Shown here: positions 7,564 to 57,873 of the stretch, one piece after another | Layout: every line of letters begins with the position of its first letter | Numbering within the stretch: the first letter of the stretch is position 1 | From: Membranipora membranacea | Taxonomy: Eukaryota; Bryozoa; Gymnolaemata; Cheilostomatida; Membraniporidae | Assembly: GCA_914767715.1 (NCBI GenBank) | Contig: OU612075.1 | Span: 1,114,001 to 1,178,000 of the forward strand | Direction of reading: 5' to 3' | DNA length: 64,000 nt | The notes under the pieces: generated by a model | The model's database searches: none | What the model saw: only the letters and a program-made list of their open reading frames with translations | Told to the model about the DNA's origin: nothing | Made by a program: the position numbers and the translations under genes

Positions 7564-10019
7564 TTTGCACGTTCTGGATACACTCTTACTGCCACAGTGT
7601 CCTAACTCCGCCCACTTTATACAGTTATGTGATGAGTCTCTACATGACGTCGTGTCTCCTGTTGAAGAGCAGAGCTCACATGAGAGAGGGCACGACTTCT
7701 GAACGCTCGCGACTTTACAATGACCTACAAAAAGGAGCATCACTAAGTCTGAGTTTGAATACTACGCTGTGTTTTGAATATTTTAAACCCTATTTAGGCA
7801 TAAAAATTCACCAAATATTTTTATTGGAAGTTTGATGAGCTACGGACTACGGTTGTATGACTGAATGAAGAGTTTACCATTCTTAGCCCAGTTACTGCAA
7901 GAACTTCTAAAATCGCGACAGCGCTTTGGCAGTTTTCTTCTCTGATTTGGGCTGGCGGTGGCCGTGTCAGCATTGTCTTCTTTTTTTGAAGTTGTGCTGT
8001 TTATCACCGTGGTTACTGGTATCACTTCATGTTCAAGTGCCAACATGGTGGTCTGGTGTTGTGGCTCATGGATGACTTCATCATTGCTTGGCAGCATAGT
8101 ATGTGAGGTGTTAGTGTCACTGCAAAGTTTGCATACTTTGAGACATTGCTACAATACACACATGTAATTAGATTCGTAATAGTGCTACAAACACTCCCTA
8201 TATTAACAATATTACAGACTGCTTTTTTTAAGTCGATATCATTATGAATAACAAACATAGAGTGCAGTTCACTTAATTCAAACCTCCGGGGACCACCAAA
8301 ATTTGTTCTAATTAGGCACAGTTTGACTTAAATGACATTAGAATGCATTGAAATCTGGCTGAAGGGACCAAATTTCCTTGTATGAATTCAAAGGAATTTT
8401 GAAATATAAAGATTACACTGTATTATAATGTGTTCATATGAACCAAGGTTAAGGGCAACAAACAACAACAGTTAAGTGGCTTTTCTTTGGAGAAAGCTGG
8501 TGTCCGGAAAAGTATTTTTGTAACTTTGGGAAGGATATGAGAATGAGGCTATGGGATAGGAGGATTAATAAAAGAAATTAACCATTACTCGTCACATGTC
8601 AATCAGTTCTTATAGATTTGTCTCCTACTTTTAGGACTCGCACAACACAATAGAATATATCAGTTACCTTTGTGTCTTCATCTTCTGTATTACATCCATG
8701 TTCAGATATAATGCCTGCACATGTACTCAGTACACCAGCAGGGCATTCCTCCTCAGTCTGGATTGTGCTCTCCTTATCAGTCTGGATTGTGCTCTCCTTA
8801 TCAGCTGGTGAGCAAAGGTCACATGACTTCATACACAGGTCACTGACTACTTGACTCGTTGTGCAGTAACCTAACTCCATCCACTGTTCACAGTTCTTGT
8901 TTCCGTCATTGCAAGCTGAGTGGCAAGAAAATAATTAAGAGCGTAGATTTCAATTGGAAATTACCTGAGAAAACAAAGATTTGAAAAGTGAAACTTTCAA
9001 AATTCCAGTTACCGGGAGGATAACCTATATCTAGCATCTCGTGCTTTCTTTCTTGTCAATGACTTAGACCAAATTCATAAGCATGCCGTTCCGTTTCACC
9101 TACTTTGCGACTAGTAAGTTCATCGCAGCGTGAACCCTTGTCTGCACAGATTGAAAACCTTGAAAGTCTCTTTGAGATCCTAACTAGCTCAAAATCAATA
9201 TTGTAATATTACATATACATCCATACTTGAGTAAGCTGTATCTGATTGCGTGTGTCTTTCTGTGTCAGATAGAAAGGCAGGAGGTGTAACATTCCTCTGG
9301 CTGTTTGGTTTTCTTGAGACTCTGTCAATCTCACTATCAGTGGGTCTTAGTGCATTGGTCGCTGTCGTGCTGATCCTTTCTCTGTCGCTTGGAGAAGTGG
9401 ATCCTTCACTGCGTCTGGTTGTGGTTCTCCTTCGTGGTTTACCAACTAGTGATATACTTGGTACTAGAGCAGCACTAGTACTGAGTACTGTAGTATTACA
9501 CGTCCCGCATGATCGAGGGCATCGTCGTCTGGTCTCCAGGTCTATGCCACAGTCACCGTTAGCAGCATAGTGCAGACAACTCTCATGTGAATCTCTGCAT
9601 AAACCTGGTGAAGCTGTAACAAAAAGCATGCTCAAAACTGATTACCTAATGCCAGGACATGCTCTGAGTTCAACTTTGTAGCCAGAGTTCCTATAACAAT
9701 TGTACTTTCCGCCAGTTCAGTAAATCAAGCTACCCTGTTATCATATTGCATTTGATGGAATAGAAACGTAGCATTAGCCTTACAAACCTAAGATCAGACT
9801 TACATGTTACAGGGTGGATGACGGTCTCATAGGGTGCGTTCTGCTCTGTAGGGCGGATAGACTCTCTCTGACAGACTCCACAGCTGTAAGGACATCTTGA
9901 AGTCATGAACTTTTCCTGCCCATCTCTGTGGCATTCTCCGACTGCCTGCCAGTAAGGGCAGAAACCGTCCAAATCATAACATTTATTCTGTGTGTAGGAG
10001 AAATACTCAGGTGTCACTC
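7543..10019 (-). other. Five ShK (ShKT) domains at the metalloprotease C-terminus
   Basis: Six-cysteine ShK patterns, each with the C...C..W...G.C......C..SC..C spacing, are found in exons 10019-9804 (ending CPYSCGVC), 9613-9227 (CPRSCGTC), 8915-8668 (CMKSCDLC), across 8119-7878/7724 (CPLSCELC) and in the last exon (CKKSCNRC, then TAA at 7543-7545). A basic, Ser/Thr-rich linker follows the second. The linker after the third has an exact 24-base internal duplication (8755-8802) encoding DKESTIQT twice. Confidence 0.9.
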
Positions 10020-13000
10020 CTACAGGTTAAGTAAAATTGTCGGAAAATAGGTAGAGGTGTAGTACATTGTATGTGGTTGGCGGGCGGGCGGGCGGATGAG
10101 CGGGTGGGCGGGCCGTTGTATGAGGTAGGCAGGCGGGCGGGTGGTTTGGCGGGCAGTCAGGTAGGGTTGCAGTACGTTGTATGTGGTAGGTAGGGGTGTA
10201 TAATTTTTATGTGCTATGACGTTTAAGTGCTCTGAATACAAGAGAAATGCACAGCGAAGGGGGCTGGTTGATAGAACAGAAAGGAAGAAAACACTGACTG
10301 TACTTTTTTATTTCATAATTGAGGAGTCATCAAGCTCCACTAAAGGGGATTATTATTACAAAACTTGGACTCTGAATTTTTAGGTTTGGGACTGATGGTT
10401 ATGATCAGAGAATCCAGAAAGAAAGTCAGTCTCAAAACTTGACAAAACTGACAAAACTTGAAAAAGGGCAGAAAATATGCTCTGAGTCTGTGTTATTGAT
10501 AAATAATGTAGCTTCGAGCTATGTAAGTTATTCTTATCGTTACTTACTCATCATGATCTGTATTTCACACACAGTAAGTATCACATTGATATCCATGAGC
10601 TGTACGCTGATATAACTACCTGATAGAGAACTCTCACAGGTAATCACTGCAGCTCCACTCCTACCTCCCGACACACCTGTATCAAAAAACCTTCATACTC
10701 TCAGTACAATAAATAAACGATAGGGATTGCCCTCTCATTGGTGATCAAAAGAAATCTGATCACATATCATTAACATTTTACAAATTATTATTACAGTATG
10801 GATTATCATGATCTGTGGTTACAAATAGATTGCTCCTACCTGGGCGGAGTCTGAGAAATTAAACTAGGATGTGTAATTACCCTCTCACACCATAACAACT
10901 CCTACCTAAGTATCATTTATGATTGTATGGACGGGATGGGGTACAGGTAATTAACATCATATCGGTATACTAAAAGTGAAGCTGCAGCCTTCACCATTTC
11001 TGACTTCTGAGCCAGTCATACAGAGAGAGCATATCTTGTATTTTTATTTAAGCCATTGAATATCCACTTACGTACCACCTCTGTAATGAAAGCACAGCGG
11101 GTTCTCAGTGAAATCTGAATTATTACCGATCCTCACTTCAAAGTTCCTCAGTCTGTCAGCTGGAACAGAGTACATAGATGTTCAGAGGAATGATTGTATA
11201 AGGGAATGTTCTCAGAATATACTGCACCCACTCTGATTTGTGTGGTCTATAGTTTAAAGTCCCAGTCAGTTGAGAAGATGATTCATTGGGATGATCAGAA
11301 GTGTAGAAGCTCAAACAACACATAATCCAGTTGTCTCCTCTCGACTGTCCTAAAATTAATATCTATGCCCGAAGGCCTTCTTCTGCTTGGTTTAAGAGTT
11401 AAAAATATGTGCTCAAAACGTTGAAAACGCAAAATAAGATGTATATAAGATTTAAGATTAGATTTAAGTATTTTTAGAGAAAATGATGCAATTATAGTCG
11501 TAGTTTTCAACTCACAGCAGCAGTCATCTCTGTTATAAATGATGACAGCCTCTACTTGTGTCTCAGAGTATTTAGGTTCTAAGTCTACTCTTATCCAGGG
11601 TTTGTCTTCTCTTAGTGTATGTGTACACGACCCATGTACCGCTGTATAACACAACGTAAATAAATATATGTCGTTTCCTGTTGGCGGCCTCTATTTTTCA
11701 GTCATCAGACAGAGCCAAAACTTGCGGCGATGTTAACCAACTTTTAAACCAACCAACTTCGGGTCATCGTCTGATGCTCCACGTGATATCACCTATTGTC
11801 ACAGGCCTATGGCAGAGCATGGAAATAGTATTAATTCTGATGTTTAATCAGTGGACTGCAGCTGTGATGTATCCATAGCTGAAGTAAAATACTTTACACC
11901 TGAAACTTAAATTTCCAAGATATGTATCTATGTATATATGTATGATGTAATATGTAGCTTTATTTCGACCATCAAACCATTTAGATGTGGAGACATTCAA
12001 AGTTACCATTATAAGTCTTCTGGTATGAAAAATATGATTTCTTAGTGACCCGATGAACCCATGTTAATTATAGCATGCACATGATAAATGAGGAGCAGGA
12101 CCCAATACCAACACAACTAGAGTCAAATTAATAACGCACACAGGTAAAAGGGCGCACAACTCTCCCTCTATTTAAAACCCAGCCTTCACTCTCCACCATT
12201 AGTCTAGGCAAGGAGTTAGAGTCAGAGAGTCACAGTCTCGAACTCCTTGGTCTAGGCGAAGGTTATACTCACCATTTTTAGTCTGAGGCAGACCAGTAAC
12301 CGGACCATCTGTAGCCTTCCAGGCTCCCCACTCCTCCTCACTCTTATATGTAGAGCTCTGTACTACCATCGAGCGCCAGCCGACATTCACTGAATAATGA
12401 CCACAAGCACAACATTCACTGAATAACGACACAAATTAGTGTAAGAAACCAGAACTTTGCTGCGAATGAAATTCAATCCGGAAGGAAAAGTGTTGCTTAT
12501 TTGTTGAATTTTATTTAGATCTTGGTGAGTCATTATTGAGATACCAAGCTTGACTCAATGAACCTATAAAAGCTATACAGTGGCTTTATGTCGTTACCTG
12601 GAATGGCTGTCGGTGTCTTGTCTTGTATTGTGGGCGTCTCTTCTTTAGATACACATTTGCTGCCTTTGGCGCTGAGCCATCTTTCGAAGGACTGTACAGC
12701 GCAGACAGACCAATCGTGGTCCTGCCACACCCCTCTCCTCATCACCCCCGAGTAGCAAAGTCTAGAGTTACGCCCCTCGTAATCATCATTCACTCCTAGT
12801 CTGAAAGTAATGACAGATTCCTCGTTAAGATGTTTATATTCTTAGTGTGGCACATGGCAATTTTATTCTCGCTTAATTCTGGAAGCAGCTTTATGTTTCT
12901 GCATTACAAAAGGGTCCACAAACTAAATGTCCACTTTGAAGTGGGTTACTTTGAAGGCAAGCTTTATACAGGAAAACGAATCAAGGAACGGTTTGAGACC

Positions 13001-20649: not shown

Positions 20650-21839
20650 AAATATGGACACAAGGAAACCTGCTAGCGACCTCCAGTTATGATGGGGAGG
20701 TGATTATATGGAATATGATATTTGGACATATTTCTGTCATCTCTTCTCACCAGACGACCCAGATTACATATCAGACTCTCGTAAGTCAACATTGAGAGGA
20801 TAAAAGTAAAACTTCTATTTTGATGCAGCAACACCAATAAAATCATAACATAGAATTCACGGCAACGTGGGAGGAAACTGCGGATGTTCAGTATTCAATT
20901 TTTACTGCTATAGTTATGCGATTATGATGATTCTTGTTGTATGCAAGTAAATGATGAAATCATATTATATGTTTTGATCACATCCTCATCATGTTGGTAT
21001 AAACTGTCAAGTAACCAAGTAACTAAGTACTCTTGTTAGATATGCCACACATCCACACATGCCACACACGGAGTCTTTGAAAATGGTGCAAGCCTACCGG
21101 TAAAAACCTCCAATAGCGAATAGCGATATATGTTAAATCTTAAAGTCATAATGTAAAATAATATTAATAACCAGATCATTGCAAAGACAATCATGGATTG
21201 CAATCCATACACTCTATAATACTCATTTTTGTTGTGTGCCTTCCAAAACCTCATTAAATTGTTTTTATAAGCTCCGTCTGGGAATGTGTGTGGTAGCGCA
21301 GCTGGACGTTCTGAAGTATAAATATCCCTTGCGTTTTTTCCATGTGAACCAAAATGTTTTAAGCTCAACAGCATGCCTGCAAATATAGGCACTTTATTTT
21401 TCCTTCTTTTCTGCGTTCTTTAAGCAATAAAGATTTAACTAACTAACTAACACACATGAGTGTATCACTGCATATTTGTGACTTGAATAGCAACTAAAAC
21501 TCTGAAAAGAGGACAGCAGATTTTTAAGTATGAGTTGTCTTCCGTTTTGCAACTTTCCACTTTTCTCATTTACTTTATTTTCAGTGTTGCCACTTTTTAC
21601 ACTTTCACTTCAAGAATCCATCCTTTGCTCATTGACAATTGATTCAAGAAAACTGCCACGATTGAGCCCATCTTCAGTGTGTTCCTCCATCTGTTACAGT
21701 TTACTATGTATCTTTTTGTGTGTTTCTCCCGTTATCATTGAGTTGATGTTTATATATGTTGTATAAGTATTTTTGGACATTGATTGCCTGATTGAAAGCT
21801 GATTCTTCTTCTCCAATGAGTCAGTAAGGACGTAGCCTT

Positions 21840-23160
21840 GCCCTGCCAAAAGACCTGTTGCATTTTCCTTGCAAGCTTACTATCGTGATGTTATCAGCCA
21901 TATAATGAAGTACATAGTAGGCAACAAAATGCTTCACCCTCAACAACATGGATTCAGAGCTAAACTGAGCTGTGAAACCCAGCTGGTTGAATTGATATCG
22001 GACATCTCGAAAGATCTTGATGCAGGAAAGGAAGTTGATGCATGCCTGCCTGATTTTAGCAAAGCCTTCGATAAGGTAAACCATCCAAAACTCCTCCAGA
22101 AGATGAAATCAGCTGGTATAAGTGACCAAATCACTAACTGGACTGCATGCATCCTTCCTCAGAAACCGAACCCAAGCTGTCACATTGCAAGGAGTCTCAT
22201 CTGATCTATGTGCTGTGACCTCTGGTGTACCACAGGGCTCTGTCATTGGCCCATCCCTCTTTCTGCTTTACATATACGATCTTCCTAGCTCAGTTACATC
22301 CCACATGAGACTCTTCGCAGATGACACAATCATATATGCCACGGCTGATAAGTCACACCAGCTCAAGGAAGATCTGCGCAAGCTGGAGAAATGGGAACTC
22401 GACTGGAACATGAGTTCCACCCCTCCAAATGTGAGTTTGTCCGTTTCAGTAGAAAACGCACAAAGAAAGAGCCCCCCTCCTACCAACTACACCAGGAAGT
22501 CATCCCCAAGGTTGACACCATCAAATACCTAGGAGTAAAAGTACAAGAAGATCTGAAATGGAACTCTCATATTGAGTACATTACCAGCAAAGCCTCTACA
22601 ACACTAGGCTTCATAAAGAGAACCATACCGCCACAGTCCACCAACTTTCGTGTGAAAGCCTAAAAACATCTAGTGCGTCCAGTCCTCGAATATGCATCTA
22701 GTGCATGGGATCCTCTCCCGAAGACACTTGCCACCAAATTTGAAGCAGTACAGAGAAGATCAGCCCGTGCTGTGTTCAACATATCCCGAACCAGCCATGC
22801 CTCAACTACCAGTATCATTCAGAAACTGGACTGGGAGAAGCTCGAGGACCGACGAAACCACAGGCGTCTCTGCCTGTTTAGAGCCATGCACTTCCAGGAG
22901 GTGAACACTGACATCAACGACTATGTCCGTATGACTGATCGACTAACCAGCGCACGCCGCCACAACCAACAGTACCGAGTGGACCATCACAACACCAAGT
23001 CCCACATGAACTCGTTCTACATCAACACGAGCCGCTCTTGGAACCAACTGGATCCCCAAAGCAGATATCTCTGCCCCCTGGGTAGCCCACGCCCGTCCCT
23101 CACCTGGTTTTCTGGCAATTGAATCTCGGAACATTAACGGACCATGAGCTGCCACATTTC
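21840..23160 (+). mobile_element. Decayed non-LTR retrotransposon (LINE), reverse transcriptase part
   Basis: RT motifs run in order: FSKAFDKVNH (motif A) near 22055, SGVPQGSVIGP (motif B) near 22230, FADD (motif C) near 22315, then KYLGV near 22530 and VRPVLEYASSAWDP near 22680. Coding shifts frame at least twice (near 22120 and near 22400), and one in-frame TAA follows FRVKA at about 22663. No endonuclease domain is seen, so the copy is 5'-truncated and dead. It belongs to the Jockey/CR1-like group of LINEs by its motif style. It sits between two WD40 exons. Confidence 0.88.
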
Positions 23161-44150: not shown

Positions 44151-47100
44151 TCATGGAGCTAGAGCAGCTGGAGCAGCTACTGGAGCAGCTACTGGAGCAG
44201 CTACTGGAGCAGCTACTGGAGCAGCTACTGGAGCAGCTACTGCAGCAGCCGCAATATCTGGAGCAGCCGGAGTAGCTGGAGCAGCTGGAGTAGCTGGAGC
44301 AACTGGAGTAGCAGGCACTCTTCTCCTCTTAAGAACATTCCATCTGATATAAGTGTTAGTTCCAGACTGGGGATTATTTATGTCATCGTCTGCTATACGA
44401 TCTGTAATATGACAATAACAGTGGCTAACTATGGTATGTTATTTTGGCCCCATTTAATTAAAAAAAAGAATGAGTAAATGCTTGATAACAAATGTAAATA
44501 TTACTTTATCACTGCACTTTAAGTATGACAGATCCAAGATCTCTGGAACAATCTATTAAATAAATCACAAAGAAAAACATGCGGTTAAGAGCGCTCTGCA
44601 GCACAGACAGAGAGCCAAATATTCTGTATTAAAACCAGAAAACCTGATTGTATATCATTTACAATAGGGTAAAGTATATCAAAGCTCTGTAAGATATGTG
44701 TTGAGCTGGGGACTATCATCGTCATTGTTTGTTATAGAGCTCATGAAGTAGATAATCGATTTCAGACCTATAAATTAACAAATACAATGGTTGTGCCATA
44801 AAAAACTCAGTCAACGACAACCAGAGAATTTGGTGTAATGAAACCTCAAAAAGTCACAAGTGTACGTGTAGAGTCATTTGTTGAGGGGGCAGGCTTGATG
44901 CAAAAAATTTGTCTTAGATCTTTAAAATGTTCTACTCGAGATAATAGGCCACGAAAATTTTGAATAAATATCCTTAGATTACCTAACATAAGGTCTGATA
45001 TCTAACCACAGCAAGCAGCTATTCATCTGAACCCTGACTATCATCTGTACCAAAAAACTTCAATGATAAGACAGCCAGTACTCTACTCACCTGGTAACCA
45101 TTCTAGAGTAGTATCAGTATTACCATCAGGATATCTGGGATCTGTCAGAGATTGTGGATGTTCACCAGCCTTTCTCATATTAACTCCAGGTCTGAGGTAT
45201 AACTTTCTCAGATCTGTGAATGTGTTGGATATTCGAGGCATCTGAGCGAGATAGACTTCCTTCTGACCTGGATATAGAGGCAGATACTTCTGAGTAAGCT
45301 CTACTCCATATCTACTGACTGCTTCTCTGATCTGCGTGGTAAAAGAAAAGGTAGTTTAACAAGATGCATATGATTCGGGCCAAAAACAACAGAGAAGCAA
45401 AGCGATGATGCTCATCATGTCATAAAATTTGATTGTCTGAATTGTAGTCGCATGTGTTTTGGTGTTTTTGCTTGTCCTTGCACAGTTAAGTTTGGATTGT
45501 CTAGGCTTGCTTCACATTATGTTCACAATTTCATCAAGTTTTTTTCATTCACAATGTTTTTCATGCCCATCAACCACTTACCAATTCAGCTAAAGCTACA
45601 ACATCAAACTGTCCAGCAAACTTGTAAAATGTCACAACTAGTGCTCTGATGAGTGTTGATCCTGTGCCCGATGATCTGACAGAAGCGAATGCTATAAAAT
45701 ATATATAAATCTGAATTTAGGCCACTTGATGGGACTGATAAATTTTATAACAACTCTAGGATGCGGAGGGAAGGCGTTGTTGTAGAATAAAGTGATTCCA
45801 ATAAACTACCATATATTCTCATCTTCAATATCATTGCCAGCTTTGAGCTTATTTTGCTCATTTGCTTCAACTTTAATTTCATTTAAGATCTGTAACTTAC
45901 TGTCAAAACTTGCTTGCATGATTAACAGATCAGCCACTGATATTGTCTCGTTGATACTGTCTACTTCAGGTAATAGCTGTATGACATCACTTCCTGTCTG
46001 ATACAGATCTCCTTCTCTAGGTGCTGATGATGTCACTGCTAGATCAGAGGTAGTGGGGAGAGGTTCAGGTGCAGCTGCACTCAGCTCTGAGATTGAGGGA
46101 ACTGAGTCTGTAGTATCTAACAACATCTCTCTGCTACCTGTAAGGACGATCACCAGAAGCTGATACCAGAACCAGATATCAGAAGAATACAGTCTAGGCA
46201 CATAGACAGGAAAACATGTAAACAAGAGTGAGCCCTGTTAAATTTGGTAGCAAATTGTTCAACACTTAAGGTGTAGCTAGACAGGCCCACGAAATCGCGT
46301 TGTTGATGCCAAACCACGCCGTTGGCCATGCTAACGATGCGTCTTTTCAAAGACCAGCATGTTCGTGTTGTTAACCACGTTGTGAACCTACGCTTCTGTC
46401 ATTGGCCAGTTGGTACAATAGAGCGTATTTAATTGGCCATTACTCTTACTCATTGGTCATGGCTCATTGGCCACTCACTTAGCGATGTTGTCACAAGGTG
46501 GGTGTGTTTAGCCTATGAAGCCACGCCTACCACGCGTGGGAAGACAATTCCACGCATTTTGTGGGCTCATGTAGCAAGACCTTTACCATGCATGTGTCAT
46601 GATTGCGAAACCTACTGCACTTATTATACCTGCTGATTACTCTGACATATCTGCCCTTGACCCTGATATTCACAACAACATTAAACCTTACACTCTCTTA
46701 GCTCAGAAACCTCCTGTACCGGTTTATCCAATATTTAACACATTTGCGTAACTAATTCATAAAGAAGCTTTTAATTGGATGTGGACAGTTGGCTACTCAA
46801 AGAGCTCATGGATTGTTATTGTTACACTTACTTCCACCACAGGCTTGTATTATGAGTAGCTTTGGTTTGCCAGTCATGGCTGGAAAGTTCCGAGCAGACA
46901 AGAGGTTGTATATGTCAGCCAGTTTTACTAGTTTACCGTCCACACCCGCTACACAGCCTTCCAAACCGTGACTTGCGATAATCAGTACAAACACTCCGAG
47001 GTTCTTATAGACAGATTCACCTGTTTCATCCACCAGTTGTGTCTCCCTATGGATTGTATCAACTATTCCCTACAACAGAAAAAAGCAAGGGTCCTCAAGT

Positions 47101-50100
47101 ATAAGCACATACCATAGATAAGAAAATCATATTATATTTTCAATTCATTACTAAGGATATTAACCTTTGCTGTGTAGTTCTCATGACCACCTGCAACAAC
47201 AAACCCAAAGTCCTCAAAAAGAGTTCTCATATTTCTATAGTCATGTTCTGAGCCTTTCCTGTATGAGCCATTGGGCAGTTTGTACTCATTAGATATTAGG
47301 AGTGCTCTCCCTCGTGTCTCAGTCATTGTATACTGGAAATAAAAGGAAACAGTATCAATGCAAGCGATGTTTGTTCCTGTTATAGTTGTCTACGCAGTGA
47401 TTTATCTGCAGAAATCACTCAACACAATTAATTCTCATGAGTAATAAGATCGGAAAAAAGAGCCTCCAGAAGAATGCGTATTGTTTACAGAAAAAATCCC
47501 CAATGACTAAAAAGTTAACCACAGAAAAACGGCTTTCATGCAATATTATAAAAGGCAAGTTATCATCGAAGAAGAGATGAAGATATACAGCTGGAGTTAG
47601 TGTAACCTGATTGGCTGAGAGTCCGACATTATTTGTCTGAGGATCCAGAATTATAAAAGCTGGTTTCTCTCTCATCTCCTTCATTATCTCCTCAATCATT
47701 GCTCTGTCTACGGCTGCAGCTTCTGGAAGAGAGAGAAAAAACAGATCACTTAGTGATCTTTTGAGTCTGATAGAGAAAATTAAGTGAATAACAAGCTTCT
47801 CCATTCTCAGAATATCTAACACCTCACATGTCACCTGACACCATCATCACAAAGACTGTTTAAAAGCTTTAACCTACCATTAGGTACTGCTGGTACAGCT
47901 GGAAGACGGATCAGGTAGTCTTTGATTTGACTCTTCTCGGCAGCTGTCAACGCAAAACCTGTCAAATGGGAGGAATTTATAATTATACAATGGCTCAGAG
48001 CATGACAGGTATACAGTAGATCCGGTAATTTGTCAATAATTCAATACTATTCATAAAGGCTACTCACACGGATATCTGAGTGGTGAGGGCACTGTGGGAG
48101 GTCCTCCCTCAGAGCTGTCGTTACCACATGGTACTGGATCGATTCCTGTGAAGTTATCCAACCGCTGGCTGAAGGGCTGGTCTGTCTCAGGATCCTCTGG
48201 TGGTCTGTACCAGTCAGGATCTAACTCTTCAGAGCGGAGACAGTGAGCGCAGTAGAATGTACACACAGGATGAGCAGCTACCCAGACCGATTTCAATTTG
48301 TTGAGAATCGTTTCTAATACTTCAAAGACTCTCTTCCAGGCTGCATCAAGCTGTTCTACTGGTGTGTCAGTGCAGAGTAAGATCTCATGCCTGATGTGAT
48401 TGTGAAGGAGAGTTGTTACGTTCTGACCATGAGTAACAGATGATCCATTCTTTGCAGCTTTGATCTGATAACGATGATCAGTGAAAAGGTTCAAAAAGGA
48501 AACTACAAGCAGGTGGTAGACGTAAGATGGTGGAGGTAAACTATCAAACCTCACAGCCATTTTTATTCTCAAAAGACCGGCAGAAGGAGAACGGAGCACA
48601 ATGAGATCTGGTGAGAGGTAGGGGATGATGTACTCCTTTCCATGATTTCTCTGGATGGGTCCACAAAGAAGATAGAAAGTTTTCAGAAGACAGATGGCCC
48701 TGTTTTCAGGAAAAGACAGACTCTCAAATAGACCTCTAAGCAGACGCTCGTCAAGGACACCACAACCCTTGAAGGTATCAACAAGCTCGCTGTACTTCTC
48801 GGCAGTAACTCTACGCCTATCAAAGTAAAAGGGCCTGAAAGTAGCCACTCTTTTGTCCCACATTTCACCACGACGGTGATCAAACAGTGTAAGTATCACC
48901 TTTGTGATTTCGGAGATATTGTGGAAGACAACATCGCTCAGCATACTTTCGTTCTCAAACCACATCAACCTGCCTTCATTATGCATATATCTGATTACAA
49001 TCAGAGGGCCTTGTGTGGGAAAAGATTTCAATATATCCTCTACTCGAATGAAGGGCTCAAGCTGGTCATCGATAAAACGTGCTATTTTCTCCCAAATAAA
49101 GGGAATTTTGGTCGAGTGCCTGTTACATCTCAGAATCAATGCGTCGAGTAGAGAAAGGATATTGTCCACCTCATCCAAATTTTTGCCAAATTCAAATATG
49201 TCCTGCAGACTGAATATCTTCACACCTCTTGCTGAGAAGTGATCAATCGTTGTTATCATCTTTCTATCCTGTAACTTTTCCTTCCTTTGTTTTTCCTGCA
49301 GGATGACTGCCTCTTCTGCAAGCATCTCATTCCGAAGTTTCTCAACAGCATCAAGCAGCTCAGCTCTCCTTTCATCAAAGAGTTCAGGAGACAGTTTGTC
49401 TTTATGAGTTAGGACGAGAAATGGAGGACCCAACTTGGGACAGGGCAGGTACAAATGAGCGAGATATTCAACACACAGCTGTTTAGTGGCCTCTTCAATG
49501 TTCTCTGACCTGACTAGCTGATCAAACTGCTCCATGTTTATAACCACAATCGGGATATAATTTGGCCTAATAAGCATCTGGTATGATATGCGATAAACTT
49601 GGTCACCACCAAAGTCAAACATTCTCAGCATATTCTCACCCATGGATACCTCATTGACTTCAAACACTCTTGTAGTCTCATCGTCCTCAGCAGACTCATC
49701 TCTATGTGTGAGCTCTCGTGTCCGACTCTTCAGACTTCTTATCAGACTAGTTTTTCCTGCCATTCTGTTCCCGATGACTGCTGCAGAAATGATGGGTCGC
49801 TTGACACCAGATCTCTCAGCTAGATCTGTGTAGTATTTCCTGATTGCAGCTAATCCTTGATCACAGACTGCATATGGAGGAGATCTGAGATTAAAGCATT
49901 CACCACAGTCCAGCTCTATCAGGTTTGGTAAGTCTATCACTGCTGGATGAAGCTCCTCTAGAGATTCTATCTGAGACAGATCCAGATGTGTGAGAGACTT
50001 CAGTCTTGTCACCACAGCAGGCAGAGATCTGAAGTCGTCGTAGCTGAGATCTAACTTTTCTAGCCGGGTCAGACCATCCAGGCTATAAGAATAAGAATAG

Positions 50101-53100
50101 ATGATATGAGGGTGATGTCAATGAATCAATTAGAGACAAACCAATAATCTGTATACAATAATGTGGATGACACTAAAGTGGGGACTGACAGACTTACACA
50201 TTTGATGTACAAATCAAACGTTAAAATTGCTGACACAACCTAGCCTTGTCACGCCTTGTCATTTTTGTGGTTTTTTTTGTGAAAAAACCAAAACCCGTGG
50301 CCGCGTGACAAGACTAGACACAACCAACTATGATGGGCCATGTTTATTTTCTGCATTTAACGCATGAACTGAATTCTAACTTTTCTAAATTGTATACCCT
50401 TTATACCATCCACCAATATTTTTCAAAGTTATGATTTTGGCTTTTAAAATGATTTGATTTGAGGTTGTTGAACCTGAGATATAACTTCTCTAGTCGGGCC
50501 AGACTATCCAGCCTATAAGATTAACAATAGATGAAATGAAGGTGATGTCGATAAAGCAATAAGAGACAAAACATTATTCTGTATAATAATGTAATGTGGA
50601 CTGACAGACTTACACATTGGATGTAAATACCCAATGCTAAAATTTCAGACATAACTACCTATGATTGGCCATATTTTCTTTCTGCATATAAACTTTTCTG
50701 GATGGTCTACCCTTCAAACTATCCACTAATATATTTCATACGCCATGAGACCTTTGATCAATATCTTTGTTGGGATATCGGGGTGTTTAACTACAAAAGG
50801 TTGCAAATTTTTGGTTAATTTTTTGCAGACTCAGACTGCCAAATCTGTTAAAACTATGTTAACTGGTGGGGATCATTTTATATGTTGTAATTTAGAATTA
50901 GAAGTTTTGATAATATTAATTCCTTTTAAGATAGTTGGGTGATTTGTATCATAGCAGGATGCGGTTGAATCTTATCAGAAGTAAATTGTAGGATAAAGCT
51001 AAAGTGACCTGTCTTAAAAATTAAGTTGAATAGGGTTGTGTTAGGAGTTTTTTCCTCAGATTATCAGATGAGACCATGAATATGCAATTTATTATTTATG
51101 TTATCACTGGAGCAGAGTGCACATTTTTGGCTGATGGCCAGGGAAATTAGGATAGAATCTAAACACAAAGATATTATATATGCATCTTATGCTCAACTAC
51201 TTAATTGAACCAGTATTTAATTTAATTTAATTAGATAACCACTATATCATTTATTACGATAAGTATTATTAAAAGACAATCCAGCTTTGAATTTAGTACA
51301 CATACTACATAGGTCATGCCTTAAATGATTTTTTGAAAGAAAAACTTTGCATTTTAATTTCATAATAATCCAAAACAATCCTACATTTAAATCAATACAC
51401 CTGGAATTTTTATGTAAGGAAAATTCCCCACATCCTCCTGCGCTGAGCTTCAAGGCGTTTGATGAGGTATTTATCTTTTAACATATATTTTATATTTAAT
51501 TTGAATCGTTATAGAAATACAGAACTTCAAACACCTATTTCTAAAATAATATAGGGCAAATCTTTGGCTATCCTAAAATATGAGGAAAAACGCGGTAAGC
51601 TAAAACTCCAGCAAAAATTGTATTCTGCTCCTTCAACGGTCAACATTAATTTTTGCAGGACTTTGATTTCACCTGATTATCAAGAGACATAACGTCAACA
51701 AACTGAACTATAGGAAAGTTTACTATTGAAAAATAGGAATCAGGAGTGGTGTAAAGGTGAAGACTTCTAACTTGAATACAACACACCTCGCAAGCAGTAA
51801 AAAGATACCCTCTGCCTCTTCAATATTCTTTGACTTTACTCATATTTATTTTTATTATCCCCTGTCTATACAACAGTTCAAACACCCAAATCTCTCAGCA
51901 TATTCAATGTTTGTGACAAAATAAACCATCAAACCAAAGAATTACCAGATCTTTGGCGGGCAAGGGTATGGAGAGCGGTTTGAGTACCATGGGTCCAAGC
52001 ACCTGTATCCTAGAGGGAACAGCTCTCTCCACATTGAACACTTAAACTTAGACCATGAAAATTAAATTGGAAATTCCTCTATACTAATTTAACCACGCTG
52101 GTCAAATTTAAAACCGAAGCAGGCATGACAATGCCATTAAACTTACCTCTTGTAACCAAAAAATATTAAAAAAACATCGCATGAGCTAGCAAAACAAAGT
52201 CTTTAAAGCATTAATTTGAATTGAGGGGATAAAAAAAAACTAATAAACATTGTGGTTCATTCTTTTGATTTAATTAACATGGAGAAAGGAAATACAAAGA
52301 CTATCCTCAATCTCCCCCATCCCATCCCCGCCCCCTCCCCCGTCATTATTCTACCTGTCAATAAAACATACCAAACTTTATTGTTGACTTCGCTGTATAT
52401 TTTGCATGTTGATGACTGGTTAATTGGTAAAAGAAATGCATCTATTAATTTACTGACTCCGCCCATGATAGCCTGTCAGTAATATTATGTATGATCAAGA
52501 TGTAAAATGTTCAGGTTTCCTGACACATCTTATATTATAATTTCAAACATCAAATTACATTAAAAAATTAGAAACTTTAATTTTACTCAATAAAATCATA
52601 ATATGTTTTATTGATTGTTGTATCTATCACAGGACCAGGTTGAGACTTCACCAGTCATCTTTTTAGGACCGTCAAATTTTCCTATTCTAATTTAAATGCC
52701 CCTGCAAACCGCTGACAGTGTAGTGAACAATTTGCATCCCTTTCTGTCTGATATGAACACCATTACTATAAGAACTGATCCTATAAGAGCCTCATGAGTC
52801 AAAAATTGAAGCTGATAAAATATGAAGTTATAAAATTGATGATAATCTATTCCATTGGAACCCGCCTATTTGAAAATTCAATTGGTGGTTTTTTTAGCAC
52901 AGACCGAGATGAGGCTACACTGATTTTCTTGTCTCAAATAATTCAGCTAAAATAAACTGCTGTCAAATTGTACCAAATTGATACCTCCTTATGTTTTATG
53001 ATAAATTAATACAAACAGAACTGACTCTAGATGAGATTGGACAAGAGAGCTACTTTATTAGTCTAGTTCTGATCCATCATCCCCCTACCAAATTTTACAT

Positions 53101-56100
53101 ATATCTTAAGTATGCACAATTGGTGAGCACAAAAATAGGAATGTGGAATAAATAATTTTGGTCAAGCTGGTGAAAATTGAAGTTTTAAAGTTGTTGATAT
53201 TTTGACTTTTTCGGAACACAACTATTTTTCGTCACAGCTTATTTATTTGGCTAGTTATGATCCATCATCTTCCCAAATTTTAGTTTTACCAGAATGCAAA
53301 ATGAAATTTATGATGACAAAAATAGGAATTGGGAATAAAAAAATTTGGTGAAGCTGATAGAGTGTGAAGTTTTAAAATTGTGGATAATATATTCTTCTGG
53401 AACCCTCCTATCTTTTTATACAGCCTCGTGAGTCAAAAATTCAACTTCAGATAATCATGGAGGGAAAAAGCATTCAAACTTATCTGTAGCTCTTATCTAA
53501 TGAGATACACACACCAGACTCACCTGTCATCTAGAGATGATAGATTACAGTTAGTCAGATCCAGCACTCTGAGGGAGGTAAGACTGGATATAACAGGAGG
53601 CAGACCACCCACTGAGAAGTTATTATGTCTTATATTCAGGTTCTCCAGCTGACTGAGCTTAGACAGTCTGTAAAATATGTACAAAATAATGTTATATGCA
53701 ATCAAGACGTACAAGATGAAAGATTCCTGATTAAATTATATCCTATAATATAAACACGTGTCACAAAATAGCATTATATCTTTACCAATTTAAATCATAT
53801 ATAAAAAGGATGCAATTTAAAAATTCAATCAGTGGTTATTTTAGCACAGACCGAGATGAGGCTACACTGATATTCTTGTCTCAAATAATTCGGCTAAAAT
53901 AAACTGCTGTCAAATTGAACCAAATTGATACCTCCTTATATTTTATGATAAATTAATACAAACAGAACTGACACTAGATGAGATTGGACAAGAGAGCTAA
54001 TTTATTAGTCTCGTTCTGATCCATCATCCCTCTCCCAGATTTTACATATATCTTAAGTATGCACAATTGGTGAGCACAAAAATAGGAATGTGGAATAGAT
54101 AAATTTGGTGAAGATGATAGAATGTGAAGTTTTAAAATTGTGGATAATATATTCTTCTGGAACCCTCCTATCTTTTTATACAGCCTCGTGAGTCAAAAAT
54201 TCAACTTCAGATAATCATGGAGGGAAAAAGCATTCAAAAAAATCTGAAGCTCTTATCTATTGAGATACACACACACCAGACTCACCTGTCATCTAATGAT
54301 GATAGCTGACAGAAAGACAGATCCAGCACTCTGAGGGAGGTAAGACTGTATATTACAGAAGGCAGACCACCCACTGAGAAGTCACTATCTCCTATATGCA
54401 GCTCCTCCAGCTGACTAAGCTTAGACAGTCTGTCAAATATGTACAGAATAATGTTATATGCAATCAAGGCGTACAAGATGAAGGATTCCTGATTAAATTA
54501 TATCCTATAATATTAACACGTGTCACAAAATAGCATTATATCTTTACCAATTTAAATCATATATAAAATGGATACAACTTGAAAATTCAATTAGTGGTTA
54601 TTTTAGCACAGACCGAGATGAGGCTACACTGATTTTCTTGTCTCAAATAATTCAGCTAAAATAAACTGCTGTCAAATTGTACCAAATTGATACCTCCTTC
54701 TGTTTTATGATAAATTAATACAAACAGAACTGACACTAGATGAGATCGGACAAAAGAGCTACTTTATTAGTCTAGTTCTGATCCATCATCCCCCCTCCCA
54801 AATTTAACATATATCTTAAGTATGCACAATTGGTGAGCACAAAAATAGGAATGTGGATTAAATAATTTTGGTCAAGCTGGTGAAAATTGGAGTTTTCAAG
54901 TTGTTGATATTTTGACTTTTCTGGAACGCAACTATTTTTCGTCACAGCTGCTTTATTAGGCTAGCTATGATCCATCATCTTCCCAAATTTTAGTTTTACC
55001 AGAATGCAAAATGGAATTTGTGATGACAAAAATAGGAATTGGGAATAAAAAAATTTGGTGAAGCTGATAGAGTGTGAAGTTTTGAAATTGTGGATAATAT
55101 ATTCTTCTGGAACCCTCCTATCTTTTTATACAGCCTCGTGAGTGAAAAATTCAACTTCAGATAATCATGGAGGGAAAAAGCATTCAAACTTATCTGAAGC
55201 TCTTATCTATTGAGATACACACACCAGACTCACCTGTCATCTAGAGATGATAGCTCACATTCAGACAGTCTCAGCACTCTGAGGGAGGTAAGACTGTATA
55301 TAACAGGAGGCAGACCACCCACTGAGAAGTTATTACCTCCTACATGCAGCTCCTCCAGCTGATTAAGCTCAGACAGTCTGTCAAATATGTACAAAATAAT
55401 GTTATATGCAATCAAGACGTAGAAGATGAAAGATTCCTGATTAAATTATATCCCATAAATTGACAAGCCTCACATTGTTTCAATCAAAAAATAGCAATAT
55501 ATTCTTACCAATTTAAATCATATATAACATGGATACAATTTAAAAATTCAAGTAGTGGTTATTTTAGCACAGACCGAGATGAGGCTACACTGATTTTCTT
55601 GTCTCAAATAATTCAGCTAAAATAAACTGCTGTCAAATTGTACCAAATTGATACCTCCTTATGTTTTATGATAAATTAATACAAACAGAACTGACACTAG
55701 ATGAGATTGGACAAGAGAGCTACTTTATTAGTCTAGTTCTGATCCATCATCCCCCCTCCCAAATTTAACATATATCTTAAGTATGCACAATTGGTGAGCA
55801 CAAAAATAGGAATGTGGAATAAATAATTTTGGTCAAGCTGGTAAAAATTGAAGTTTTAAAGTTGTTGATATTTTGACTTTTCCGGAATGCAACTATTTTT
55901 CGTCACGCATACTTTATTAGGCTAGTTATGATCCATCATCTTCCCAAATTTTATTTTTACCAGAATGCAAAATGAAATTTATGATGACAAAAATAGGAAT
56001 TGAGAATAAATAAATTAGGTGAAGCTGATAGAATGTGAAGTTTTAAAATTGTGGATAATATATTCTTCTGGAACCCTCCTATCTTTTTATACAGCCTCGT

Positions 56101-57873
56101 GAGTCAAAAATTCAACTTCAGATTATCATGGAGGGAAAAAGCATTCAAACTTATCTGAAGCTCTTATCTATTGAGATACACACACCAGACTCACCTGTCA
56201 TCTAATGATGATAGCTGACAGCCAGACAGATCCAGCACTCTGAGGGATGTTAGTGAGTATATAACAGAAGGGAGACCACCCACTGAGAAGCTATTATGTC
56301 CTATACGCAGCTCCTCCAGCTGACTAAGCTCAGATAGTCTGTCAAATATGTACAAAATAATGTTATATGCAATCAAGACGTACAAGATGAAAGATTCCTG
56401 ATTAGTTTAATATTTTGCACACAAAACTGGTGCGCCAGTTTAGGTAAAAGTTCATGTATTGCCAAATACCCAAAATATTGCATTGACAACTGATGAATGA
56501 ATTAGAAATAATCATAACAATAATTACAATGTCAATCTAATTCTACTCACCCTGTAAGTGATCCACCGGTATACCTCAGATAGAGATGTGTAAGATGAGG
56601 AGCTATAGACCTCAGACTATCAGGTACCTCACAGTCATATATAAACATGTGAGTTATAGAGTGAGATCCTACTCTACTCTTTATCTCACTGATAGTCTGA
56701 GGTTTGGTAGTAACTCTGATCTCACCAGCCTCACCTCTACGTCTTATAGACAGATCACCACCATATCCTAATGTTGATACACTCTCTACCTCTGTCTCTC
56801 CGCTGTGTCTGTACCAGACTCTATATTCTATAATATAATAATATTAATCATATATAATCAGTGCTGTCATCCTAATAAGGTCTTGTTAATGTGTAATCTG
56901 GTATTTATCAGATTATACTGATAATCATCTTGTCCCTTGTGATGTGATATGATTATGGGCTATTAGCATCTTATGATGTATGAGATCAAAACTCCTAATA
57001 TTATATTAAGGTTTTCTGTACAGCCTGACACTTCCTGGTATAAACAATTGCTGTGGTGATGGTCTTACCAGGACGTTGGTAGGTAATAAAATAACTTATT
57101 GGCTTCTGTATAGAAATAACCAACATAAAAATAAATTCTTGTTAATGTGTAATCTGGTATTTATCTGTTTATACTGATAATCATCTTGTCTCTCATCATA
57201 TGATATGATAATATGATTATGGGCTGATTAGCTATTAGCTTATTATGATGTATGAGATCACAACACCGGACTAAATAAAAAACCGCTGTACTGTATAGCC
57301 TCCCAATTCCTGGTATGACCAATTGTTGTGGTGATGGTTTTATCAGGACTTTTAAAGGTAGTGGTTTTGAATAAATTATTGGCTTCTGTATAGAAATAAC
57401 TAACAGACAATTTGAATGTCTGTTTTCTGTACTGAAAATATAATTGCGTGCAAATGACTAAATAATGTTGCGAGATGGGAGCATACCCTATTGATTTACA
57501 AGCTCAAGATTTGGAATCATCATATCTTGTCGAAAACGAAATGGAAATTTTAATTTCATCTGTCTACTTAGCTCCAAAATGAGATCTGCCTTTGATTGCC
57601 CCAAACCTAGTGAGAGTCCCCTGAGTAAAGTACAGGGGGTCATAATAGTGAAGAGGTTTTTTTTGTCGTTATGAAGCTTGTATGAGCGGGGGGGGGACTA
57701 AGCTGGTATTAGCAAAAAATTTGTAGTTACTTACTCGGTTCCTCATCCCTGTCCTCATCCTCACTCTCAATCTCAATCTTATTCTCATCCTCATCAACAC
57801 CATCACTCTCACTCTTATTTTTTCTCTCACTTTTACTCTTCCTGTTGAAAAACCGAGCACTTGCACCGAGCAT
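44151..57873 (-). CDS. LRR-Roc-COR GTPase fused to a caspase (ROCO-caspase), 15 exons
   Basis: Exons on the minus strand: 57873-57735 (coding part), 56827-56551, 56338-56195, 55377-55234, 54429-54286, 53667-53524, 50082-48068, 47958-47878, 47722-47607, 47332-47165, 47069-46832, 46137-45901, 45691-45582, 45331-45091, 44401-44151. All 14 junctions agree in phase and total 4449 nt, 1482 aa plus TGA. Rough order: acidic Lys/Glu-rich N-terminus (1-46), unique segment (47-138), LRRs (about 139-400), Roc (about 430-620), COR (to about 1000), linker, caspase p20 (about 1069-1203), linker, p10 (about 1283-1400) and Ala/Pro tail. No kinase domain and no death or CARD domain is seen. The expected role is a GTP-regulated, LRR-sensing caspase in cytosolic death or immune signalling; that role is inference from the domains. 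Confidence 0.9.
44159..44315 (-). repeat. Coding minisatellite giving an Ala/Pro/Val tail
   Basis: Twelve-base units (GAGCAGCTACTG on the plus strand) are repeated about six times and followed by degenerate 12- to 15-base units. Read on the minus strand in the ROCO-caspase frame they give VPATPVAPATPAAP and then VAAP repeated, ending ALAP and TGA (44151-44153). The matching plus-strand frame (Gly-Ala-Ala-Thr) is a shadow. Confidence 0.9.
45091..47332 (-). other. Caspase domain exons (p20 and p10)
   Basis: 47332-47165 has ETRGRALLISNE (conserved Arg of the S1 pocket), RKGSEHDYRNMRTLF and HENYTAK. 47069-46832 has IIASHGLEG (catalytic His) and LLIIQACGG (catalytic Cys, the same pentapeptide as caspase-9). 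46137-45901 is a Ser/Glu/Pro-rich linker with several Asp residues that could be processed. 45691-45582 has FASVRSSGTGSTLIRAL, aligning with the YSWRNxxxGSWFIQAL region of p10, with the second pocket Arg kept. 45331-45091 has IREAVSRYG and QMPRISNTFTDLRKLYLRPG. All catalytic and P1-Asp pocket residues I can check are present, so the enzyme is probably active. Confidence 0.92.
48068..50082 (-). other. Roc-COR exon (last LRRs, Roc GTPase, COR)
   Basis: A single 2015-base exon encodes LDGLTRLEKLDLS-type LRRs, then Roc. The P-loop is GNRMAGKTS (GxxxxGKS/T), the switch II region is FDFGGDQVYR (Roc proteins usually DFGGQE) and the G4-like motif is LTHKDKL. COR follows, with sections such as FSARGVKIFSLQ, IVIRYMHNEGRLMWF and YYLLCGP-like FYLLCGPIQRN. 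The layout is as in MFHAS1/LRRK-type ROCO proteins, in which GTP state controls dimerisation. It ends in a donor after ...RYP and splices in phase towards the caspase. Confidence 0.9.
50232..50324. mobile_element. Foldback MITE in ROCO-caspase intron with 8-bp target duplication
   Basis: The arms CTAGCCTTGTCACG (50240-50253) and CGTGACAAGACTAG (50304-50317) pair at 13 of 14 positions, with more complementary bases inside (TTTGTGGTTTTTT/AAAAAACC). Direct repeats GACACAAC at 50232-50239 and 50317-50324 flank it, the mark of transposon insertion. It has no coding capacity. Confidence 0.75.
50456..50512 (-). pseudogene. Relic duplicate of the start of the Roc-COR exon (LRR part)
   Basis: On the minus strand an acceptor (TTATAG) is followed by LDSLARLEKLYLRFNNLKS, paralogous to LDGLTRLEKLDLS at the start of exon 50082-48068. 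The neighbouring intron sequence (50513-50700) also duplicates 50083-50225 at an offset of about 430. No donor or continuation is evident, so it looks like a dead partial exon. Confidence 0.7.
50513..53523. other. Long intron of the ROCO-caspase gene
   Basis: This is the 3' part of the 3.4-kb intron between the last LRR cassette and the Roc-COR exon. Apart from the duplicated segment at its low-coordinate end and partial LRR-intron repeats from 52860 on, I see no further exons. Confidence 0.5.
52860..56400 (-). repeat. Tandem genomic duplications carrying the LRR exons
   Basis: The introns between LRR exons repeat along with them. A block beginning AGCACAGACCGAGATGAGG occurs near 52900, 53845, 54606 and 55568. 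A second block (TTTGACTTTTCNGGAANGCAAC) is present in the longer units only. The near identity of intron sequence argues for recent duplication. Confidence 0.92.
53524..56338 (-). other. Tandem array of four LRR cassette exons
   Basis: Four 144-base exons (56338-56195, 55377-55234, 54429-54286, 53667-53524) each encode 48 residues, that is two LRRs. The pattern is LSxLxQLEELxIGxNxFSVGG then SLTSLRVLDLS..QLSSLDDR. Every one is phase 2 at both ends (AG | A), so any number can be added or skipped without frame change. Exposed positions differ between copies while the framework is constant. Spacing is 762, 948 and 961 bases. Confidence 0.93.

Follow-up and report, generated by a model that had tools for sequence, protein, structure and literature searches.

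Can a single animal gene join a sensor of leucine-rich repeats (LRR), a Roc-COR GTPase and a caspase in one chain? This question is raised by a locus of the bryozoan Membranipora membranacea, located in a stretch of 64,000 nucleotides (contig OU612075.1, positions 1,114,001 to 1,178,000) that we call the window. The initial annotation had proposed here a single minus-strand gene read in phase through 15 exons, and an independent rebuild from the window DNA reproduced it exactly: the gene runs from 57873 to 44151 on the minus strand, encodes 1482 aa in 15 exons, its 14 introns are all GT-AG and all the phases agree. The best codon score corresponded to the model frame in the 15 exons, the only stop being the terminal one; since exon 7 served to train the codon table, this test is independent of the training for 14 of the 15 exons. 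At the sequence level, the observation of one LRR-Roc-COR-caspase reading frame is confirmed. We consider it probable that the product is a single-chain sensor, switch and executioner, with variable LRR, a Roc-COR GTPase and a catalytic caspase, and that it belongs to a large, recently duplicating family. The elements of the gene are the following (the copies and the Watersipora proteins are presented below):

57735-57873, minus strand: exon 1, start codon and acidic N-terminus, residues 1-47 (gene model, paralogues)
56551-56827, minus strand: exon 2, conserved N-terminal domain ahead of the LRR (gene model, paralogues, tblastn match to Watersipora P0002)
56195-56338, minus strand: exon 3, LRR unit 1, 144 nt, phase 2-2 (gene model, Pfam, LRR-exon survey)
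55234-55377, minus strand: exon 4, LRR unit 2, 144 nt, phase 2-2 (gene model, Pfam, LRR-exon survey)
54286-54429, minus strand: exon 5, LRR unit 3, 144 nt, phase 2-2 (gene model, Pfam, LRR-exon survey)
53524-53667, minus strand: exon 6, LRR unit 4, 144 nt, phase 2-2 (gene model, Pfam, LRR-exon survey)
52814-56419, minus strand: tandem exon-intron units of 0.76-0.96 kb bearing the LRR exons (window self-comparison)
48068-50082, minus strand: exon 7, last LRR, Roc GTPase, COR-A and COR-B, residues 331-1003 (685-codon open frame, 671 codons within the exon)
47878-47958, minus strand: exon 8, COR-caspase linker (continues exon 7 as in Watersipora, PL[RK]xPC..LT..E)
47607-47722, minus strand: exon 9, COR-caspase linker (splice sites AG/GT and frame intact in all 10 paralogues)
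47165-47332, minus strand: exon 10, start of the caspase large subunit with p20 pocket Arg1093 (Arg in all 11 copies, counting that of the window)
46832-47069, minus strand: exon 11, p20 with catalytic His1158 (SHG) and Cys1201 (QACGG) (both residues in 11 of 11 copies)
45901-46137, minus strand: exon 12, inter-subunit linker with Asp1263 (Asp in 11 of 11 copies, read by eye)
45582-45691, minus strand: exon 13, caspase small subunit with p10 pocket Arg1288 (Arg in 9 of 9 resolved copies; B4 and B5 unresolved)
45091-45331, minus strand: exon 14, final part of the small subunit (KLYLxPG), then an extension (A2-A5 unresolved, the other 7 of 11 copies resolved)
44151-44401, minus strand: exon 15, low-complexity Ala/Pro/Val tail and stop, uncertain (alternative last exon at 44767-44680)

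The last exon of the model is uncertain, as the alternative at 44767-44680 (minus strand) also closes the frame. Both candidates (44401-44151 and 44767-44680) start alike, which suggests a duplicated or alternative C-terminus, and the exon at 44401-44151 ends in 12- and 18-bp repeats encoding Ala-Pro-Val.

Domains of the predicted protein and its relatives in Watersipora

The Pfam check of the 1482-aa model recovered LRR (LRR_14, 2.1e-34), Roc and Peptidase_C14 along the chain in the order that had been claimed. Roc lies at the Pfam cut-off of 27 bits, with 26.7 bits in the whole model and 28.2 bits in the Roc-COR piece. The P-loop GKT, DxGG and TH.D motifs are kept in the model and in two proteins of another bryozoan, Watersipora subatra (P0001 and P0002). 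The LRR and Roc of the initial annotation stood, and COR was recovered weakly by profile, below the curated cut-offs: COR-A (E 0.015) in one of four members, the window piece only, and COR-B (E 0.0014 at best) in two of the four. These sub-cut-off matches stand in the expected order after Roc. When the profile of the paralogue A2 was compared with the PDB it found mainly LRR proteins (best 60 of 523 matches) and, because of this, Roc-COR was searched alone. In this profile search, the Roc-COR part of exon 7 matched CtRoco (3dpu) with 3.6e-9; the match to the Chlorobium Roco protein starts within the LRR-Roc linker. Scanned against Pfam at E 0.01, the whole model gave no kinase or death domain, nor a CARD or DED prodomain, and no STAND NTPase (NACHT/NB-ARC) was among its matches. 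For the exon 7 product, P0001 and P0002, the PADLOC anti-phage families gave nothing, and the NCBIfam matches were all below cut-offs, mostly LRR with a weak small-GTPase match.

Regarding the caspase, the annotated domain with both subunits was found. The Peptidase_C14 match (1.2e-26) covers residues 1075-1358, nearly the full family length, and among the best 60 matches the closest solved structure is CED-3 of Caenorhabditis elegans (2e-19). His1158 and Cys1201, which we take to be the catalytic residues, are present in the model; Arg1093 and Arg1288, presumably of the P1 pocket, align with those of CED-3 and are kept in the resolved paralogues. The domain set is that of a metazoan-type caspase (C14A) with p20 and p10, predicted to be Asp-specific.

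Five predicted proteins of W. subatra (P0001 to P0005) were the full set of matches at E 0.001 when 7992 candidates were scored, so that the search of relatives was not exhaustive. P0001 (1105 aa) and P0002 (1835 aa) carry Roc-COR followed by a full caspase, and P0002 also matches exon 2 and the LRR exons of the window gene by tblastn. The closest solved structure to the caspase of P0001, among the best 60 matches, is caspase-3. In the databases P0001 is named 'MFHAS1 homolog' and P0002 'uncharacterized', the MFHAS1 label being present on four of the five relatives.

Paralogues and gene family

To follow the exons in other copies, we compared 11 genes of the same contig: the window gene (A1) and ten others, of which A2-A6 have 97-98% DNA identity to the window Roc-COR exon and B1-B5 about 74%. 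The AG/GT sites and the frame of exons 7, 9, 10 and 11 are kept in the ten paralogues, as are those of exon 12, whose length changes are multiples of 3. Exon 1 keeps the ATG, the donor and the frame in the five matching paralogues, and here too the length changes by multiples of 3 (the remaining five were under the 60% match limit). Exon 2 keeps its sites and frame in 7 of 7 matching paralogues, with 3 of the 10 unmatched. A weak point is exon 8, well aligned in 5 of 10 paralogues: AG/GT are present in the five of A-type, and the five of B-type, at 46-48% identity, lack a donor where the alignment stops. Exon 13 could be resolved for 9 of the 11 copies and exon 14 for 7; exon 13 of B4 and B5 and exon 14 of A2-A5 were left out, their aligned ends not being splice sites or the frame being lost. 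All 11 copies have the p20 Arg and both catalytic residues, His and Cys, and the p10 Arg is present in the nine resolved.

The ratio of nonsynonymous to synonymous substitution rates (dN/dS) was calculated in 11 chosen pairs among the 55 possible. Roc-COR gave 0.26 for A1-B3 and for A2-B3, and the four diverged pairs gave 0.10-0.16 in exon 11 and 0.11-0.23 in exon 13. These values show that Roc-COR and the caspase are under purifying selection between diverged copies. It should be noted that A2-A5 are 98% identical to the window copy in the Roc-COR exon but 79-81% in exon 11, and because of this difference the modules seem to have been swapped between copies.

The genome (339,339,785 bases in 18 contigs, the window being C11:1114001-1178000) was then searched for Roc-COR (72 of 233 candidates scored) and for Peptidase_C14 (140 of 515 candidates scored). 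There are at least 72 Roc-COR places on eight contigs, window gene included, 71 of which have no internal stop, and at least 145 Peptidase_C14 places. For 52 of the 72 Roc-COR places a caspase follows on the same strand less than 12 kb further downstream, at 687-2155 bp in 50 of these 52 pairs; the control placements (upstream on the same strand, and on the opposite strand at either side) gave 0 of 72 each. In addition, a p20-start exon was found downstream on the same strand in the 20 Roc-COR loci inspected with 1.5 kb flanks, which include 9 of the 20 unpaired ones, the window gene among the nine. In total, 61 of the 72 loci bear a caspase. In this respect the initial annotation needs correction: the window gene is a member of a large family and not an isolated oddity.

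Seen from the caspase side, a Roc-COR lies upstream within 12 kb for 53 of the 145 places. The genome presents a large caspase expansion in which 92 of the 145 places have no scored Roc-COR within that distance; therefore, there remain caspases of other architectures or Roco genes that were not scored. The locus L001 (G000:C4:18270899-18271708) has a whole caspase-like domain in a single open frame (6e-36), with FDSS at the QAC catalytic stretch, and is probably a catalytically dead caspase relative. Three ROCO-caspases of the C9 group (L021, L022 and L026) present TGHG at the catalytic His, compared with ASHG in the window gene, and a longer p20 start.

Diversification of the leucine-rich repeats

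The LRR exons of the window lie in tandem units whose introns are 90-95% identical. Because these exon-intron units carry 144-nt exons of phase 2-2, the frame survives the gain or loss of LRR units. A survey of about 9.4 kb per copy (8.3 kb in the window) found 30 exons of 144 nt from the 11 copies, 0 to 4 per copy, with 29 usable; one A2 exon without a donor was left out of the selection test, and B4 yielded no LRR exon.

The exposed positions of the repeat follow from the LxxLxLxxN rule. At the ten exposed positions, the mean pairwise ratio of nonsynonymous to synonymous differences (pN/pS, as raw proportions uncorrected for multiple hits) was 3.28 (bootstrap over exons 2.5-4.7), compared with 0.55 at the other 37 LRR positions and 1.11 at all 47, and the observed pN was reached by none of 10000 random sets of ten positions. 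Within the window exons, the first and second positions of the exposed codons vary in 11 of 20 columns versus 71 of 536 intron columns (p 2e-5); in the other codons 12 of 74 vary, which is comparable to the introns. Nonsynonymous sites exceed introns at p < 0.05 in four of the six pairs of window units (uncorrected and non-independent comparisons). The variation is concentrated on the strand positions facing the concave surface, and these results show that this LRR face is under diversifying selection. Judging from the sequences compared, the putative sensor part is fast-evolving, as in immune receptors.

Decayed LRR exons were also observed. Two of them lie on the minus strand at about 52472 and 50512, within the large intron that precedes the Roc-COR exon; an in-frame stop interrupts one of them early, and the other is shortened. 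A third (38920-38774, minus strand) is located about 5 kb beyond the 3' end of the gene.

Elsewhere in the window, a diacylglycerol acyltransferase exon (Pfam DAGAT, 4e-41) is present at 3228-3707 on the plus strand. Two ShK-like exons, one below the Pfam cut-off, and a galactose-binding exon (F5/F8 type C-like) were found at 8602-9641 and 11298-11690 on the minus strand. The region 21836-22529 (plus strand) is probably a broken retrotransposon, because it contains pieces of reverse transcriptase (RVT_1) in two overlapping frames. The Rfam search at the gathering threshold found nothing in 38000-64000.

Proposed function, alternatives and known systems

Animals usually divide sensing, relay and killing among a receptor, adaptors and a caspase. 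The best reading of the window gene is a single-chain immune or self/non-self receptor that would trigger its own caspase. The diversified concave LRR face would bind a non-self (or allogeneic self) ligand; this binding would shift the nucleotide cycle of Roc-COR and hence its monomer-dimer state; two chains would be brought together and their caspase domains would pair; the paired caspases would cleave themselves in the inter-subunit linker, with Asp1263 as the candidate site; and the self-cleaved caspase would set off cell death or inflammation. The Roc-COR module would occupy the place of the CARD/DED prodomain of initiator caspases. We infer in this scheme the ligand, the nucleotide control, the self-cleavage, the cell death and the role in immunity or allorecognition. 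The dimerisation driven by GTP, as initially annotated, is contrary to the behavior of CtRoco, reported in PMC6337361 to be mostly a monomer when GTP is bound and a dimer when nucleotide is absent; because of this it is not the default expectation and, taking CtRoco as a guide, the paired chains would be nucleotide-free or GDP-bound rather than GTP-bound.

Several observations weigh against this reading. The chain is known here from genomic sequence, COR remains below the Pfam cut-off, and the structure predictions were too poor for use (mean predicted local distance difference test score of 41 for the exon 7 product and 37 for P0001). In Watersipora, the P0004 and P0005 models end just ahead of the caspase and that of P0003 breaks off within p20, so the caspase may be optional. 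P0002 has Lys in place of the p10 Arg, and Asp1263 has no aligned counterpart in the Watersipora proteins. Among the paralogues, the exon 14 stretch of A2-A5 is not aligned to splice sites and contains 1, 9, 9 and 8 stops, so the C-terminus of these copies is predicted to be either different or broken. Some dN/dS values are high: 0.29-0.91 for Roc-COR among close copies, above 1 for exon 10 in three pairs with few changes, and up to 0.76 (exon 13) and 0.94 (exon 14) in B1-B3, while exon 14 of B1-B2 shows seven nonsynonymous and no synonymous changes. As for the LRR, the exposed positions were fixed after four of the 29 exons had been viewed, the other 25 being unseen beforehand, and in the window LRR exons the third positions of codons are likewise more variable than introns (12 of 47, p 0.03). 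Finally, the count of 61 of 72 loci rests on pairing plus inspection, with the remaining 11 outside both, and two of the pairs are 5.4 and 9.8 kb apart and could be different genes.

Among the alternatives, the one that survives best is that the family serves for self/non-self recognition between colonies, or for developmental cell removal, and not for antimicrobial defence. We regard it as possible, although on the doubtful side. Such a use is plausible in a colonial bryozoan, bryozoans being listed among the colonial animals with allo-incompatibility in Kaur et al. 2021 (PMC8195603). The diversifying selection on the LRR face is compatible with either use, but a family of 72 or more loci on eight contigs is more like a repertoire of immune receptors.

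It is improbable, in our opinion, that the chain is real and the caspase acts as a scaffold or regulator rather than as a death protease. Catalytically dead caspase relatives are known, and key residues vary in some relatives, as in the case of P0002. However, the catalytic His and Cys and the pocket arginines are kept in the resolved copies, and the dN/dS of exons 11 and 13 is low between diverged copies.

Another explanation would be two adjoining genes: a Roco gene that stops after COR, followed by an independent caspase gene whose start is Met1071. An in-frame Met is present at the caspase start in the window protein, P0001 and P0002, and P0004 and P0005 end just ahead of this Met. Nevertheless, the three introns from the Roc-COR exon to the first caspase exon have 109, 155 and 274 bp, which leaves little space for a gene end and a new promoter. 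On the minus strand there is no AATAAA between 48567 (within the Roc-COR exon) and 43826, where the first one lies 325 bp beyond the model stop; the weaker ATTAAA signals at 46775, 46433, 45877 and 44458 are all downstream of exon 11, so neither signal is present between exon 7 and exon 11. In addition, the splice sites and frame of exons 7, 9, 10 and 11 are kept in every paralogue, 61 of the 72 loci are colinear, and a second species has predicted fused proteins. On the intron lengths, the lack of AATAAA, the phases and the colinearity we rejected a two-gene artefact, and two genes seem very improbable.

The weakest alternative is the acquisition of the whole gene from a bacterium with the same architecture, which is described in bacteria (PMC8195603) and which we find hardly credible given an intron-rich gene, CED-3 and caspase-3 as the closest solved caspases (best 60 matches), and no confirmed prokaryote relative or plasmid match. 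Of the 49 stretches that a search with two conserved peptide patterns retrieved from the prokaryote genome collection, tblastn confirmed none, and the Roc-COR piece had no tblastn match in plasmids; both results weighed against a recent bacterial transfer, which was rejected.

If the receptor reading is true, sensing, relay and killing would be united in one chain, with a family size and variability sufficient for a receptor repertoire. To our knowledge, the genes of bryozoan immunity and allorecognition are poorly known, and this family would offer a route to self/non-self discrimination in these animals. It would also be a compact system to ask how a Roco GTPase controls an attached enzyme, an open question for LRRK2, and what an initiator caspase requires from its prodomain. 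We give even weight, for and against, to a broader proposal: that ROCO-caspases are the main innate repertoire of a colonial lineage, with dozens to perhaps two hundred genes, LRR arrays diversified in the germline by duplication of exon-intron units, a GTPase clock and a built-in caspase, so that one chain would do the work of the receptor, adaptor and caspase of an inflammasome or apoptosome, and independent of the bacterial version.

How does this gene compare with the systems already described? NLR (nucleotide-binding domain and LRR) receptors and the variable lymphocyte receptors of lampreys also have a LRR sensor with a diversified concave face, and NLR receptors share in addition the family expansion and a nucleoside triphosphate switch. 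Unlike NLR receptors, the window gene has Roc-COR in place of NACHT/NB-ARC and the protease in the same chain. CED-3 and the initiator caspases resemble it in p20/p10, the catalytic dyad, the pocket arginines and a long N-terminal part, but have CARD/DED where the window gene has LRR-Roc-COR. LRRK1/2 and DAPK1 likewise carry Roc-COR in a multidomain animal protein linked to an enzyme or to death; however, they have a kinase and/or a death domain and no protease. MFHAS1, of group 1 of the animal Roco proteins, has the same LRR-Roc-COR order, but consists only of LRR and RocCOR according to PMC6337361, whereas the window gene continues into the caspase. In the available parts of the reviews PMC6337361 and PMC6320773, Roco proteins fall into three groups, none with a caspase, and the word 'caspase' is absent.

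The initial annotation considered this architecture to be undescribed in animals. We found no animal description of LRR-Roc-COR-caspase in a narrow literature search of partial texts without bryozoan-specific coverage, which is a weak basis for absence; the architecture in itself is not new, being reported for bacteria in PMC8195603, and the Watersipora entries were already in databases. It appears, then, to be known in bacteria and new for animals. According to that paper, bacterial LRR-AP-GTPase(Roc)-COR proteins of conflict systems carry at least 24 C-terminal effector domains, caspase included, with several paralogues per bacterium. LRR, Roc-COR and then a variable effector, which may be a caspase, follow in them as in the window gene, and for the AP-GTPase-COR-caspase proteins the domain order is the same, on the description in the paper and not on their sequences. 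The window gene differs from them in being an intron-rich animal gene with a metazoan-type caspase, a large family and tandem LRR exon-intron units. The parallel with the bacterial design therefore makes convergence testable.

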